Below, in pieces: positions 460-17,830 of a stretch of DNA of 25,043 nt. The DNA is from a virus. The notes below the pieces were generated by a model. It made no database searches and was not told where the DNA came from. It was given only the letters and a program-made list of their open reading frames with translations. How positions within the stretch are numbered: position 1 is the first letter of the stretch; each line of letters opens with the position of its first letter. The translations under genes and the position numbers were made by a program. Location: IMG/VR virus record IMGVR_UViG_3300046457_000046, positions 1 to 25,043 of that record, one strand, 5' to 3'.

Positions 460-579
460 GGTTTTATGAGGAATTGGCGATCAGTGACCCGGGGACTGCC
501 CCTATCGCCGATTCCCATCACTTGGATGTTTTACTCCTACCCCTTGGCGCTGGCTTTAATCGGCTGGCGCTACATTTTC

Positions 580-672
580 ATCCTTGTAACTCAGTTGGTA
601 GAGTAGGTCGCTAAACCGGATATGAATGAACCCGGAGGAGGCATGTCGCTGGTTCAAGTCCAGCCAAGGATG
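580..672 (+). ncRNA. tRNA-like domain without a normal anticodon arm
   Basis: Acceptor stem ATCCTTG 580-586 pairs perfectly with CAAGGAT 665-671, followed by G672. The D arm is ACTC 589-592 / GAGT 601-604 with loop AGTTGGTA. The T arm is GCTGG 648-652 / CCAGC 660-664 with the standard loop TTCAAGT. All three are canonical. The 43 nt between D and T arms (605-647) contain no 5-bp stem with a 7-nt loop in any register; the best pairings are GGT/ACC (606-617) and CCGG/CCGG (616-635, loop 12). No CCA is encoded (GCAC follows). It could be a degenerate class II tRNA, a tRNA with an unusual insertion, or a tRNA mimic that is part of a larger RNA. Confidence 0.7.
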
Positions 673-885
673 CACAAACGGCAACACCCATCCATAACGC
701 GCTAATGCGCACACTTCGATGTTGGGGATGGTTTGCATATATGATGGGTCGCCCTAGCGGTTTAACTGTCCTCATAGAGGTGCAGCTAGTCCCATCAAAC
801 ACAGCAGCCCCAGCGGACCGGGGATATGAGGCAGGCAAAGGATGGACCGCCCCCACTGGCACGGGTTTACCCAGACCGAGTAGCA

Positions 886-924
886 GGAGAGTAACGGTAT
901 ATCGCCGTTGCTCTTTTTGTTTTT
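886..924 (+). terminator. Rho-independent terminator of the structured RNA
   Basis: AGAGTAACGG 888-897 pairs with CCGTTGCTCT 905-914 (10 bp, one G-U) around loop tatatcg, followed by TTTTTGTTTTT. It is a strong terminator that would end the RNA and must be bypassed if downstream late genes are read from the same promoter. Confidence 0.85.
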
Positions 925-1402: not shown

Positions 1403-1840
1403 ATGGCAGGAGGCAGACCAAGCAAATACTTCAGCAATGTTGAACCTAAACTCCTGCTCATTGAAGCGTGGGCAAGGGATGGATTGACGGATGAACAGAT
1501 AGCCGCAAACCTTGAAGTGGCTTACTCGACATTCCGGACATATAAAGACGACTATCCGGCATTGTCGGCGGCCTTAAAAAATGGTAAGGAAGTCATTGAC
1601 ATCATGGTCGAGAACGCCTTGCTTAAGGCAGCGCTTGGTTATCAGTACGAAGAGACGAAGGAAACAGAGGATGGATTTGAACGGTCTACAAAGATGGCCC
1701 ATCCTAATACGACAGCGTTAATCTTCTGGTTGAAGAACCGCAAGCCTAAAGAATGGCGCGACAAGCAAGAACTTGAACACAGCGGCGGCGTAAACTTCGT
1801 TGTGAACCGTAAGAAGGTGATGCCAGATGCCGGAGATTAA
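1403..1840 (+). CDS. terS: Terminase small subunit
   Basis: DNA-recognition subunit of the packaging motor. I chose the ATG at 1403 because GGGAGGTG (1389-1396) is correctly spaced from it; an in-frame GTG at 1394 overlaps that site. The product is 145 aa. After a basic N-terminus (GGRPSKY) comes a helix-turn-helix (about residues 17-45, with GLTDEQIAANLEVAYSTFRT), then the helical segment IMVENALLKAALGYQYEE and the C-terminal HPNTTALIFWLKNRKPKEWR, all typical of Firmicutes phage small terminases in which HTH and oligomerisation segments follow each other. It overlaps the large subunit start by 14 nt, the usual coupled arrangement. Small terminases recognise pac/cos DNA, which may lie nearby, but I could not identify the site. 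Confidence 0.85.
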   Translation: MAGGRPSKYFSNVEPKLLLIEAWARDGLTDEQIAANLEVAYSTFRTYKDDYPALSAALKNGKEVIDIMVENALLKAALGYQYEETKETEDGFERSTKMAHPNTTALIFWLKNRKPKEWRDKQELEHSGGVNFVVNRKKVMPDAGD

Positions 1841-3320
1841 CATCGACATTGACATAGACGGGATCATGAACACCTGGGCGCACAAGATCATTGATGATCA
1901 CAGCCGATACTTGGTGCTGTATGGTGGAGCCGGTTCGGGTAAGAGCGTGTCGGCTGCACAAAAGATGATCATTCGCATGCTGGAGGAACCAAAGCACAAG
2001 TTCCTGGTCGTACGGAAGGTAGCGAATACACTTCGTAACTCGGTATTTTCCCTATTGCGGGGAACGATTGCGGACTGGGGGTTGTCTGAGCTATTCAAGA
2101 TTAACAAGTCAGACATGGATATCACCTGTGTCAATGGCAATCAGATTATCTTCGCAGGGCTTGACGATGTAGAAAAGCTGAAATCGATACATGGTATCAC
2201 CGGCATGTGGATGGAGGAAGCTTCAGAGATACTACAAGAAGACTTCCAGCAGCTCGACCTTCGCTTACGTGGTCAAACCGCAAATTATAAACAAATAATG
2301 ATCAGCTTCAACCCAATCAGCATTACACATTGGTTGAAACTGGTCTTTTTTGATGCAAAGAAAGCCAATAGCACAGTCATTCATACCACTTATAAGGACA
2401 ACATGTTCATTGATGACGAGTACAAGGGCACGCTGGAGTCGCTGAAAGAGCAAGATCCTTACTATTACACGGTGTACGCACTCGGTGAGTGGGGAGTACT
2501 GGGACAGACGGTGTTCAATGCTCAGATCGTCACAGAGCGTTTGGTGTGGCTTAAGGCGAACAAGAAGGTTATCAAGCGTGGTAGATTCGTGTACGACTAT
2601 GTAAATGAGCAGATTATCGTTGACTCTATCAAGCTTATGCCGGACGAGAACGGGCCACTGACCATCTACGAGGAACCAATCAAAGATCACCCATACGTGA
2701 TAGGCGGGGATACAGCAGAGGGCGGGTTTGACTCATCCGTGGGTCAAGTGAGGAATAATATTACCTGGAACCAAGCAGCTGTGTGGCGTGATCGAGTGGA
2801 CACTGACTTATATGCAAAGCAGATGTTCTGCTTGGGCCACTATTACAACAAGGCTCTGATCGGCATAGAGACCAACTTTGACACACATCCGCACAAGGAA
2901 CTGGAAAGACTGCACTATCCCAAACAGTACATGCGGGAGACGATAGACAAGTTTACCTATTCCACACAGCAGAAATTTGGCTTCGTGACTACAAAGATCA
3001 CACGGCCTATTATCATTGCTTCCTACGTTCAACTGGTCAGGGAGCATATACACCTGTTTAATGACCTTCCTACACTGGAGGAAATGCTGGTGTTTGTCCG
3101 TGATGAGAACGGAAAGCCACAAGCACAGGATGGAATGCATGATGATTTAATCATGGCAGACGCGATATGCCAAGAGATACGGGGACAGCAGACCACGCGT
3201 ATTCCAAAAGCACAGCCAAGCATTAAGGACTTGCCCGAGGATCTACAAGAGGATTACCGCAAGGCAGCGCCGGACATGAAAAAGTATCTCGCTGACAAAT
3301 GGGGATTGAAAGTAGGTTGA
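1827..3320 (+). CDS. terL: Terminase large subunit (PBSX-type ATPase/nuclease)
   Basis: ATP-driven DNA translocase and headful/cos nuclease docked on the portal. The 497-aa length is normal. ATPase domain: Walker A GGAGSGKS at residues 33-40, Walker B GMWMEEASE at 126-134 with the catalytic Glu, and coupling motif SFNP at 160-163. RNase H-like nuclease domain: Asp in GGDTAEGG (D295), Glu in GIETN (E348) and the Asp pair in MHDDLIMAD (439-440) form the expected metal triad, so the enzyme looks intact. The ATG at 1827 has AAGGTG 8 nt upstream and lies within the small subunit's last codons. The next gene, the portal, begins 4 nt after the stop. Confidence 0.95.
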   Translation: MPEINIDIDIDGIMNTWAHKIIDDHSRYLVLYGGAGSGKSVSAAQKMIIRMLEEPKHKFLVVRKVANTLRNSVFSLLRGTIADWGLSELFKINKSDMDITCVNGNQIIFAGLDDVEKLKSIHGITGMWMEEASEILQEDFQQLDLRLRGQTANYKQIMISFNPISITHWLKLVFFDAKKANSTVIHTTYKDNMFIDDEYKGTLESLKEQDPYYYTVYALGEWGVLGQTVFNAQIVTERLVWLKANKKVIKRGRFVYDYVNEQIIVDSIKLMPDENGPLTIYEEPIKDHPYVIGGDTAEGGFDSSVGQVRNNITWNQAAVWRDRVDTDLYAKQMFCLGHYYNKALIGIETNFDTHPHKELERLHYPKQYMRETIDKFTYSTQQKFGFVTTKITRPIIIASYVQLVREHIHLFNDLPTLEEMLVFVRDENGKPQAQDGMHDDLIMADAICQEIRGQQTTRIPKAQPSIKDLPEDLQEDYRKAAPDMKKYLADKWGLKVG

Positions 3321-3324
3321 TACG

Positions 3325-5328
3325 ATGGGCATAAAGGATGTGATTAAGAAGATGAAGAAGACCGTAGTCAAAGCACAGCGCCCGAGAAAGCTTATCCAGT
3401 GGCAGGAACGATTAGAAGCAGCCAAGAGTGGGCAGAACATATCCCTCATGGATGAGCGAGAATACCTGTATCTGGGTGACCGCAAGGTAGACAAAAACAT
3501 CAACTCCACGAAGATACCGACTAAAATGTCGAACAACATCTGGAACATCACCTTTGAGTTCATCGAGAGCCAAGTTAACAACCAGATCCCAATGCCTACA
3601 TGTAAGAGTAAGCGTGAGGGATTCGAAAAGCAGGCGACTATGATCGCGGACAGCATCGGAAATGACTTGAAAGAATCGGAGATCGACTCCATCAACGATA
3701 AGAACGAGCGCATAACGCCGCTGCAGGGATTCTCATTGATTGAGGTAGCTTGGAACCCCAACTATAAGCACCACCTGTACAGAGGCGAGATAGAGCTTAT
3801 AGGGCGGCATCCGAAGCAACTGGTGACACAGCTTAAGGTGTACAACCTGCAAAAGATGGATTACTTCTTCGTGTTGTCGGATGTAACCAAGGATTATGTG
3901 CAGCGCCGATACAAAAAGGACCTATCCGGCGAGGAAGAACAATATCCAGAGAACACACGGCTGTTTGACACAGATCAGAATGCCTCTGGATCCGCGACAG
4001 TCCGCAGCTCAGCCAGTGAAACTGAGGAAGAACCGCTGACAGAGATCGTGTGCTGGTACAAAGACGAGGACAACGACATCTGCAAGTATGTGTGGATCAA
4101 TGACACCGAGCTAGAGGATCTGCCGAAGTTCTTCTACCGGCGAAATAAAGATGGATCGCTGATGAAAACCGAAACGCTTGATCGAGACATTATGTCACCT
4201 GCTGGTGAATTGATTGCTCGTGCTGGAGAAACAGTTCCGTTCTTCATTCCACAACGGTATCCAGTCAGCGTTCGTATCAACGTGCCGAAGAACTTCAGCT
4301 TTGGTGGGCAGAGCGACCTTGATATTATCCGGGACCAGCAGGACAGCATCAAGCGTGTGGTTCACAAGATGGAGGAGAAAGTCATCAAGGGCGGTTCGAT
4401 AATCAAGGCACTGGAGGACCATGACCGACTGAAGATCACAGATGAAATATACCAAGTGATTAGAGGCACACAGCCACAGCTTGCAGCCATCGCCACACTT
4501 GACCTTACCGCAGACATCAGCAAGGATCTACTGTTCTGTCAGGAACAATACAGCATCGCTCAGTCCATGCTAGGCATCACCAATAGTTTCCAAGGCAAAG
4601 AAGATCCCACGGCACAGAGTGGGAGGGCCAAGCAGATACAGGTGCAGCAAGCCTCCGGGCGGCTACAGTCCAAAATGTTCAATAAGATGGTCCATTATAA
4701 GGAACTATTCGAGATCATCTTCGAACACAAGATTGCTTTTTACGATGAGATCCGGCCATATCTGGCGCAGGATGTAAACGGCAATGACTCCTTCGGTGAG
4801 TTTGACAAGTACCTGCTGCTCCAGCGGGACAAACTTGGAAAACTATACTGGAACACGGACTTCATGATCGGCACAGACGGTGTGTTTGGCCTACCGAAAG
4901 ACCCAATGTTTATGTATGAACAGACGTTGGCGCTATTCTCGGCCCAGGCTATTGATGTACAGCAGCTATGGACGATCCTGGAGGGGCTGCAATTCCCTTC
5001 GGCCAGCAAGATCAAAGAGCAGTGGGATCAGAAGATGCAGCAGCAAGAGGAAGCAGCGCAGAAGGATCAGATTATCGCAGAGTTGCAGAACCAGTTGCAA
5101 CAGGTGATGGGTGAACACCAGCAGACACAAGCAATGCTGGAACAGACATCACAGAGTAACGCGCAGGCTGAAGCACAGGCGATACAGGCAGCAAATGAGG
5201 CACAGAAGCAACAGTACGAGCAGCAGAAGGCACAAGAGGATGGAGATCATCAGAAGGCCGTGGACATGGCTAAGATTCAACTTGAAGCCGCGAAGATAGC
5301 ACAGGCAGGTAATAAAACAGCAAGTTAG
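3325..5328 (+). CDS. Portal protein (P22-like)
   Basis: A 667-aa protein directly after the large terminase, the standard portal position. It is larger than most siphophage portals and matches podoviral P22-like portals. N-terminal residues to about 60 are basic; the centre holds the alternating helix/strand pattern of portal stem and wing (for example FSFGGQSDLDIIRDQQDSIKR and QSMLGITNSFQGKEDPTAQS, an IxG...ps-like motif before the stem helices). The last ~100 residues are a Gln-rich coiled coil (KIKEQWDQKMQQQEEAAQ onward), as in the P22 barrel extension. The portal dodecamer is the DNA gate and the binding site for terminase and later for the adaptor encoded downstream. Start ATG 3325 has only a weak ribosome binding site (AGTAGGTTGA), consistent with coupling to terL. 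Confidence 0.88.
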   Translation: MGIKDVIKKMKKTVVKAQRPRKLIQWQERLEAAKSGQNISLMDEREYLYLGDRKVDKNINSTKIPTKMSNNIWNITFEFIESQVNNQIPMPTCKSKREGFEKQATMIADSIGNDLKESEIDSINDKNERITPLQGFSLIEVAWNPNYKHHLYRGEIELIGRHPKQLVTQLKVYNLQKMDYFFVLSDVTKDYVQRRYKKDLSGEEEQYPENTRLFDTDQNASGSATVRSSASETEEEPLTEIVCWYKDEDNDICKYVWINDTELEDLPKFFYRRNKDGSLMKTETLDRDIMSPAGELIARAGETVPFFIPQRYPVSVRINVPKNFSFGGQSDLDIIRDQQDSIKRVVHKMEEKVIKGGSIIKALEDHDRLKITDEIYQVIRGTQPQLAAIATLDLTADISKDLLFCQEQYSIAQSMLGITNSFQGKEDPTAQSGRAKQIQVQQASGRLQSKMFNKMVHYKELFEIIFEHKIAFYDEIRPYLAQDVNGNDSFGEFDKYLLLQRDKLGKLYWNTDFMIGTDGVFGLPKDPMFMYEQTLALFSAQAIDVQQLWTILEGLQFPSASKIKEQWDQKMQQQEEAAQKDQIIAELQNQLQQVMGEHQQTQAMLEQTSQSNAQAEAQAIQAANEAQKQQYEQQKAQEDGDHQKAVDMAKIQLEAAKIAQAGNKTAS

Positions 5329-17583: not shown

Positions 17584-17642
17584 AATCCAGTACAATGGCA
17601 TAAGGGCGGTCGGCTAATCTCCCGTGAAGGGAGGTGATGCTT

Positions 17643-17726
17643 GTGGAAGTGAAAGATGCGCTACTGTTGATGATTCAATTCTCAACACTGGTGATTCTCA
17701 TTCTCTCCTTCAACAAAAAGAAATAG
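17643..17726 (+). CDS. Holin-like type I toxin peptide (27 aa)
   Basis: GTG 17643 lies 6 nt after GGGAGGTG (17629-17636). The ATG at 17637 touches that site and is less likely, though it would add two residues. The peptide (VEVKDALLLMIQFSTLVIL then a Lys tail, SFNKKK) has the pattern of the Bacillales 'putative holin-like toxin' / TxpA-BsrG group: one hydrophobic helix with M-I-x-F-x-T-L-V and a basic end. These act at the membrane and are silenced by antisense RNA. CTCCC 17619-17623 pairs with GGGAG 17629-17633 and would hide the ribosome binding site, a typical brake in this group. Confidence 0.72.
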   Translation: MEVKDALLLMIQFSTLVILILSFNKKK

Positions 17727-17753
17727 ACCGCCCGTGGTAGGAATCGGTCTATT
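17714..17753 (-). terminator. Terminator of the antitoxin RNA, inside the toxin 3' end
   Basis: On the - strand AATAGACCG pairs perfectly with CGGTCTATT (9 bp, + strand 17722-17730 and 17745-17753), followed by TCTTTTTG. On the + strand there is no T-run after the hairpin, so it works in the antisense direction; there the same hairpin covers the toxin stop codon. Confidence 0.75.
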
Positions 17754-17802
17754 CGTGGATCGCCCTTGCCAAGCCGACCGCTCTTAATGCGGATTGTACA
17801 CT

Positions 17803-17830
17803 GGAGTCGTGTTGACGCACGGCTCCTTTT
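17803..17830 (+). terminator. Terminator of the toxin mRNA
   Basis: GGAGTCGTG 17803-17811 pairs with CACGGCTCC 17818-17826 (9 bp, one G-U) around loop ttgacg, followed by TTTT. Confidence 0.75.

Follow-up and report, generated by a model that had tools for sequence, protein, structure and literature searches.

The DNA analyzed here, referred to as the window, spans positions 1 to 25,043 of the IMG/VR virus record IMGVR_UViG_3300046457_000046, and all features described below lie on its plus strand. A late transcriptional regulator gene (34–453) encodes a protein of 139 amino acids with a coiled-coil and a sigma-70-region-4-like helix-turn-helix (HTH), for which only weak, sub-cutoff matches to Pfam HTH_28 and Sigma70_r4_2 and to PHROG 36 ("transcriptional regulator") were obtained. 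Phased direct repeats (413–445; best period 11, p = 0.025) are followed by an extended −10 late promoter, TG-A-TATAAT (451–459), which lacks a −35 consensus and has a predicted transcript start at around position 466. From there to position 924, a noncoding stretch of about 450 bases extends from promoter to terminator, between the late regulator and the packaging genes. The terminase genes open the late operon, after this leader and two small ORFs: the small subunit gene (1394–1840; PHROG 309 terminase small subunit, 3e-56), with the leader 470 bp upstream of it, and the large subunit gene (1827–3320; Pfam Terminase_3, 3e-58, and NCBIfam TIGR01547 above cutoff).

The original prediction held that this stretch, of approximately 455 nt, contains no plausible protein gene and is bounded by an extended −10 promoter and a strong terminator. 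Both statements were borne out, with the promoter at 451–459 and the terminator at 885–917 plus T tail. ORFs crossing the leader (e.g., 705–950, 81 amino acids) had no Pfam match and their frame is disrupted by 1–2-nt indels with respect to the relative L181, on which grounds a coding potential was rejected. Global folding energy was within the range expected by chance (z = −1.53; 8 of 100 shuffles folded equally well) and was discarded as evidence of structure. Because folding energy alone is not unusual, the case for structure rests on comparison with related loci.

Homologous loci were gathered through terminase searches, DNA patterns, a covariance model built on the 5′ hairpin (module A) and a DNA search that used the type I version of this hairpin as query. 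The covariance model matched 16 of 400 Paenibacillaceae genomes, once per genome, and among 400 genomes sampled from the class it recovered only four, all within those 16. Against 89 sources, it found L003, L004, L008 and L090 and no other terminase-selected loci, while the type I hairpin DNA search contributed four additional loci. Once near-duplicates had been removed, 47 distinct leaders of 98–631 nt were retained, chiefly from Paenibacillus phages and prophages, 14 of them with a type I hairpin, as in the window, and 33 with type II. The comparison of homologous regions that the original prediction had proposed showed that other phages also carry conserved, covarying helices between late regulator and terminase. 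No description of this leader turned up in the literature with the search terms used, and the annotated phage and plasmid collections contained no homologue at the sensitivity used. Two sets of matches in these collections were dismissed, those of L174 being tRNA genes of unrelated phages and that of L004 a single 21-nt chance match. We conclude that the leader is a new, undescribed RNA family in Paenibacillus phages.

The promoter arrangement was highly regular in these relatives. In all 44 distinct loci with enough upstream DNA, a −10 hexamer is located 8–11 nt upstream of hairpin A, which makes A the first element transcribed; the TG extension is present in 36 of the 44, compared with 0.9% in shuffles. 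Of 26 dissimilar loci, 13 had repeats upstream of the −10 at p ≤ 0.05, with a best period of mostly 10, 11, 21 or 22, and RinA/ArpU-like regulators occupy the equivalent position in homologous loci. In other Gram-positive phages, the binding sites of Ltr activators are repeats of this kind, located at the 3′ end of the activator gene itself (PMC13123087), and the late promoters of the Ltr/RinA/ArpU group (Phi13 P23, PMC13123087; TP901-1 Alt) have phased upstream repeats like those of the window. In contrast, a structured leader or cassette is not described in PMC13123087, where the words "leader" and "terminator" are absent. No second extended −10 promoter was seen between positions 300 and 2578 of the window besides that at 451–459. 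Similarly, plus-strand promoter-like sites ahead of the terminase genes were absent in the window, L004 and L078, and L002 showed one weak plus-strand candidate before the terminase (4901–4930).

Module A of the window (type I, 470–515) consists of an outer helix (470–481/504–515) and an inner helix (482–485/495–498), with a conserved single-stranded CCCCU at 499–503. Helix strands were registered by hand for all covariation counts reported here. In module A of type I, all cells of the 16 pairs were paired (100%) in nine rows and 6 of the 16 pairs had changed on both sides, a covariation score equaled by none of 500 shuffles. The type II hairpin, with a conserved loop UAGCUnnnUGCGCAGUC, comprises 15 pairs, which were 98.1% paired over 14 distinct rows; nine pairs had changed on both sides, and no shuffle matched any of five covariation measures.

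The two hairpin types, unrelated to each other, followed the identity of the regulator. By blastp, the regulators fall into two unrelated families, one associated with type I in 10 of 10 cases and the other with type II in 36 of 36. The type II-associated regulators are RinA/ArpU/sigma-region-4-like, mostly under curated cutoffs, and the window regulator is more distant from these models than they are; no Q-family antiterminator was matched among the leader-adjacent regulators in Pfam, NCBIfam and PHROG-type model searches. A different gene adjoins A in L205 and L240, both of which carry type II. Both A types occurred together with modules B, C and D and with tRNA modules, all described below. 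As the A types segregate with the regulator and the downstream modules are mixed, A appears to belong with the regulator and promoter, and the middle of the leader to be freely exchanged, although the linkage between A and the regulator could merely reflect physical adjacency. In 8 of the 47 leaders, those of 98–125 nt, only A and the terminator are present. Judged from this comparison of sequences, the core of the leader is A plus the terminator, about 100 nt. No consistent complementarity between these two elements was seen by eye, and their pairing as a simple attenuator was rejected for this reason.

Downstream of A, the window carries a series of further modules. Module B (545–577) is a hairpin (545–572) followed by a T-run that scored as a terminator in a terminator scan, not only in the window but also in most relatives carrying it (−10 to −21 kcal/mol), a character that the original prediction had not noted. 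Covariation, which for B and C is based on 6–8 distinct rows, was modest for the B helix, its score being reached by 1 of 500 shuffles. Module C (681–736; consensus GCAACAnCC...GGnnnGC) pairs GCAA with TTGC (681–684/733–736) and CCATCC with GGATGG (688–693/726–731). Its cells were 92.9% paired, with two pairs changed on both sides and a score likewise reached by 1 of 500 shuffles. Module E (742–797), an insert with a 7-bp closing stem (TGATGGG/CCCATCA), is common only to the window and L181 and sits in the slot where relatives hold tRNA-Leu-like modules. The sequence of module D (798–884; CAGCAGCCCCAGCGGACCGGGG...CTGGCACGGGTTTACCCAG) is kept in L181, L176, L192, L197, L199 and L219 and diverged in L190, and its candidate helices at 808–823 and 863–872 are conserved at the sequence level. 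The leader ends in an intrinsic terminator (885–924) of 14 pairs (885–917) followed by the T tail TTTTTGTTTTT. Nearly every one of the 47 leaders is closed by a terminator, and both sides of the terminator helix (886–914) change among relatives, as read by eye.

Between B and C lies the slot for a tRNA. The embedded tRNA-like domain of the original prediction was confirmed at 580–672, where Rfam RF00005 scored 43.0 bits against a cutoff of 29 (37.7–65.4 bits in homologues). The acceptor stem (580–586/665–671), the D-arm and an intact T-arm (GCTGG-TTCAAGT-CCAGC) are present and the domain is degenerate, since the anticodon arm has been replaced and is bypassed by the RF00005 model as a 37-nt insert. 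The model also skipped this arm in L192 (37 nt) and L181 (18 nt). ARAGORN called a tRNA at 580–673 of the window with the non-canonical anticodon "aaa" and gave "aa" and "gtgg" in these two relatives; an encoded CCA is absent at 673–675 of the window. A decoding-capable anticodon arm is thus absent in the window, L192 and L181, and present in L078, L174, L176 and L171. Among seven slot occupants, compensatory changes were found at 7 of 12 acceptor/T-stem positions. The occupants themselves differ: tRNA-Ile(UAU) lies between B and C in L078, L174, L176 and L194 and adjoins B in L219, which is without module C; L171 holds tRNA-Trp(CCA), the tRNA of L181 is irregular, that of the window and that of L192 are degenerate, and L256 has a different structured insert. 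The slot is empty in L196, L197, L198, L199 and L002, and in L196 its flanks join cleanly (GGCGCTACATTTT|AGCAACACCC).

A second type of cassette, which we refer to as tRNA-Leu-like on the basis of complementary acceptor and T stems, a D-arm resembling that of tRNA-Leu and the sequence of the T-loop, is present in one or two copies in 11 of the 47 leaders, further 3′ or directly after A. It has a 7-bp acceptor, often starting GATGTGG, a tRNA-Leu-like D-arm (UGGCGGAA..AGACGC) and T-loop variants UGAAAGU, UGAGAGU or UGCAAAU, and its anticodon arm has been replaced by a structured RNA unrelated to tRNA-Leu-like parts from one module to another. Scanned alone, these modules had no Rfam match. Their strands were chosen by complementarity, so that the 96/96 pairing arises partly by construction and compensatory variety alone carries weight. 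Loci with near-identical regulators carried different cassettes (none, one or two), as in L004/L207, L089/L220 and L187/L206/L213. By eye, the tRNA-Leu-like frame of L252 (1078–1300, plus strand) appears to have its anticodon arm replaced by two nested tRNA-like units, both of which have an acceptor stem of their own and a TTCGA T-loop, and the replacement in L237 apparently holds another T-arm. One tRNA-Leu-like module was also observed in L249, L250 and L251 behind differing 5′ elements, in L251 immediately 3′ of a sigma-4-like regulator gene. Behind this module, L250 and L251 carry a further module (CAGCCGTAAAG..GGTAATAACACCCCATCAATAAGGGCGGCAG..) and a tRNA or tRNA-like unit. This arrangement indicates that the cassettes reach beyond leaders with hairpin A.

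Several additional elements were noted outside the leader. A conserved short hairpin (GACCGAAU..CUUA-(hairpin)-GGAGGCCG; 934–965), situated past the leader terminator and overlapping the ribosome-binding site of the small gene that comes next, is also found in L002, L003, L004, L078, L082, L083, L171, L174, L189, L253 and L256. Both strands of its inner stem vary (AC/GU, GC/GC, GUCCC/GGGAC, AUCCC/GGGAU, GGC/GCC), and the element persists where the leader is short; it might be an RNA that controls translation, or it might belong to a cos region. Directly 3′ of it, a 24-codon hydrophobic peptide frame (968–1042, MRHSEYYLSILFIIMMTIVIEVVR) has counterparts, as similar short membrane peptides, at that place in several relatives, with no family match. 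In L089, L240 and L247, a moron-like gene with its own TTGACG..TATATT promoter and an operator-like repeat (CGTACATACGAC) has been inserted behind the leader terminator, ahead of the terminase. Further downstream, positions 17591–17825 of the window gave a sub-threshold Rfam match to BsrG (50.2 bits against a cutoff of 55, E 3e-9) and contain, by eye, a short hydrophobic reading frame, MEVKDALLLMIQFSTLVILILSFNKKK; this is a probable type I toxin-antitoxin system of the BsrG/TxpA kind.

Taken together, the region is very probably a structured, modular late-operon leader RNA. The eight helices originally proposed fared unequally: those at 470–515, 546–571, 580–672 and 688–731 were supported by covariation or compensatory changes and that at 886–914 by changes on both sides read by eye, whereas that at 742–797 was shared with L181 only. 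The view of a single large structured RNA did not hold and gives way to a chain of modules that are independently gained and lost, with a slot that is sometimes empty and shortest leaders of about 100 nt.

The reading that we favor, to which we give roughly an even chance on what the sequences suggest, is a late-operon leader with A-dependent antitermination, whose middle serves as a cassette site. The regulator would activate the extended −10 promoter from the phased 11-bp repeats, and the transcript would begin essentially at hairpin A, matched to the regulator type. Polymerase would then meet B, the variable cassettes and the strong final terminator before the terminase and other late genes. 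RNA polymerase may be modified so as to pass B and the final terminator, either by A itself or by a factor brought in by way of A and the regulator. The stretch from A to the terminator would be free to hold exchangeable accessory RNAs (tRNAs, degenerate tRNAs and tRNA-Leu-like RNAs) that could be liberated by RNase P and 3′ processing. Regulator-dependent transcription, terminator read-through and tRNA-like processing are thus all predicted steps. The position of A, fixed near the start and followed by 50–500 nt of variable RNA before the terminator, fits processive antitermination and is a poor fit to a local attenuator. Moreover, as no other promoter-like site was seen before the window terminase, we infer that transcription can reach the terminase genes only by way of B and the final terminator. 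The simplest alternative is leaky termination; leaky terminators, or a promoter type missed by the scans, could supply late transcription without antitermination.

Late leaders of this general design are known from phage lambda, in which the pR′–6S RNA–tR′ leader acts together with Q, an example of processive antitermination, and some lambdoid late leaders carry tRNA genes. The two arrangements share a promoter directly after the regulator gene, a short leader, an intrinsic terminator ahead of the late genes, and tRNAs in the leader. In contrast to lambda, the regulator here is a RinA/ArpU-like activator with a sigma-4-like HTH instead of Q, the host is Gram-positive, hairpin A lies at +2 in two regulator-matched types, and the cassettes are degenerate and tRNA-like. 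In phage HK022, the putL and putR RNAs, each of two stem-loops in about 70 nt of the early transcripts, lie just downstream of their own promoter and act across 10 kb independently of protein (PMC9378689). Like put, A is a structured RNA at the transcript start, and by analogy it is predicted to act at a distance on terminators. Unlike put, it is a single (branched) stem of approximately 50–60 nt in a late transcript, and no sequence resemblance to known antitermination RNAs, put included, was noted.

Among the alternatives, a stand-alone late noncoding RNA of about 455 nt, abundant and acting in trans or in an RNA assembly in the manner of GOLLD or ROOL, with A as a hairpin cap that protects the 5′ end and with the late genes expressed via leaky read-through, is possible but rather doubtful. 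It would account for the promoter and terminator boundaries, the several covarying modules and the linkage to tRNAs, given that GOLLD and ROOL are phage RNAs near tRNAs, that tRNAs sometimes occur within the GOLLD linker and that GOLLD is expressed at lysis (PMC12286853). The present leader resembles both as a structured phage RNA linked to tRNA and differs from them in being shorter, in gaining and losing modules and in its site in a late-operon leader. The original prediction could not match the region by eye to GOLLD, ROOL or the phi29 packaging RNA (pRNA), and this agreed with the Rfam scan, in which the leader matched tRNA only and no family spans the region: the GOLLD and ROOL models gave no match up to E = 5 in the window and E = 2 in six relatives, and phi29 pRNA none up to E = 5 in the window. 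Furthermore, a conserved body of GOLLD/ROOL size (~600–900 nt) is absent from these leaders of at most 631 nt, which have no universal middle module. An identity with GOLLD or ROOL was therefore rejected, and the commonness of leaders of about 100 nt, with A and the terminator only, means that a conserved trans-acting body is missing; the link of A to the regulator type points towards transcription instead. The cabRNA of staphylococcal phages, a structured RNA of ~400 nt made from inside the terS–terL coding sequence (PMC10686824), is similar in size and lies in the terminase region, but its location within coding sequence sets it apart from an upstream, noncoding leader, and this identity was also rejected. 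A role in packaging, either as a phi29 pRNA-like molecule or as a cos-type DNA signal beside the terminase, is highly improbable. Apart from the position 470 bp upstream of the small subunit gene, the packaging or capsid role once suggested found no support, as the shortest leaders keep just the 5′ hairpin and terminator, no pRNA match was obtained in Rfam and homologous loci carry other genes between leader and terminase.

Other explanations place the cassettes at the center. It is somewhat improbable, though conceivable, that the locus houses trans-acting, tRNA-derived RNAs that retain acceptor, D- and T-arms and have foreign structured payloads, nested tRNA-like units included, replacing the anticodon arm, in addition to the regulator-matched hairpin antitermination; payload RNAs would be freed late by tRNA processing and might serve, for example, as charged non-decoding tRNAs or defense decoys. 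We regard as unlikely a phage tRNA gene unit, in which the cassette tRNAs would tune late translation (AUA/Trp codons) or replace host-cut tRNAs and the rest would be scaffold. The intact tRNA-Ile(UAU) of L078, L174, L176, L194 and L219, the tRNA-Trp(CCA) of L171 and the share of ATA among the window Ile codons (22%) speak for it, but the window, L192 and L181 miss a normal anticodon arm, several relatives have an empty slot, the tRNA-Leu-like modules cannot decode, and A, B and C are left unexplained. Less likely again is a hypervariable anti-defense locus, with the tRNA-like cassettes as decoys or replacements against tRNA-targeting host defenses. Fast cassette turnover among close relatives, the retention of acceptor, D- and T-arms with a replaced anticodon arm and the apparently nested tRNA-like units of L252 are in line with it, whereas expression would be late for such a role.

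If A is indeed an antitermination element, as the favored reading of a regulator-matched antitermination leader proposes, a put- or Q-like mechanism would exist in Gram-positive phages with RinA/ArpU-type regulators. The leader marks a testable site between late-promoter activation and packaging-gene expression, and its exchangeable cassettes represent a natural experiment on the reasons for which phages couple tRNAs to structured RNAs, as they also do in GOLLD and ROOL.
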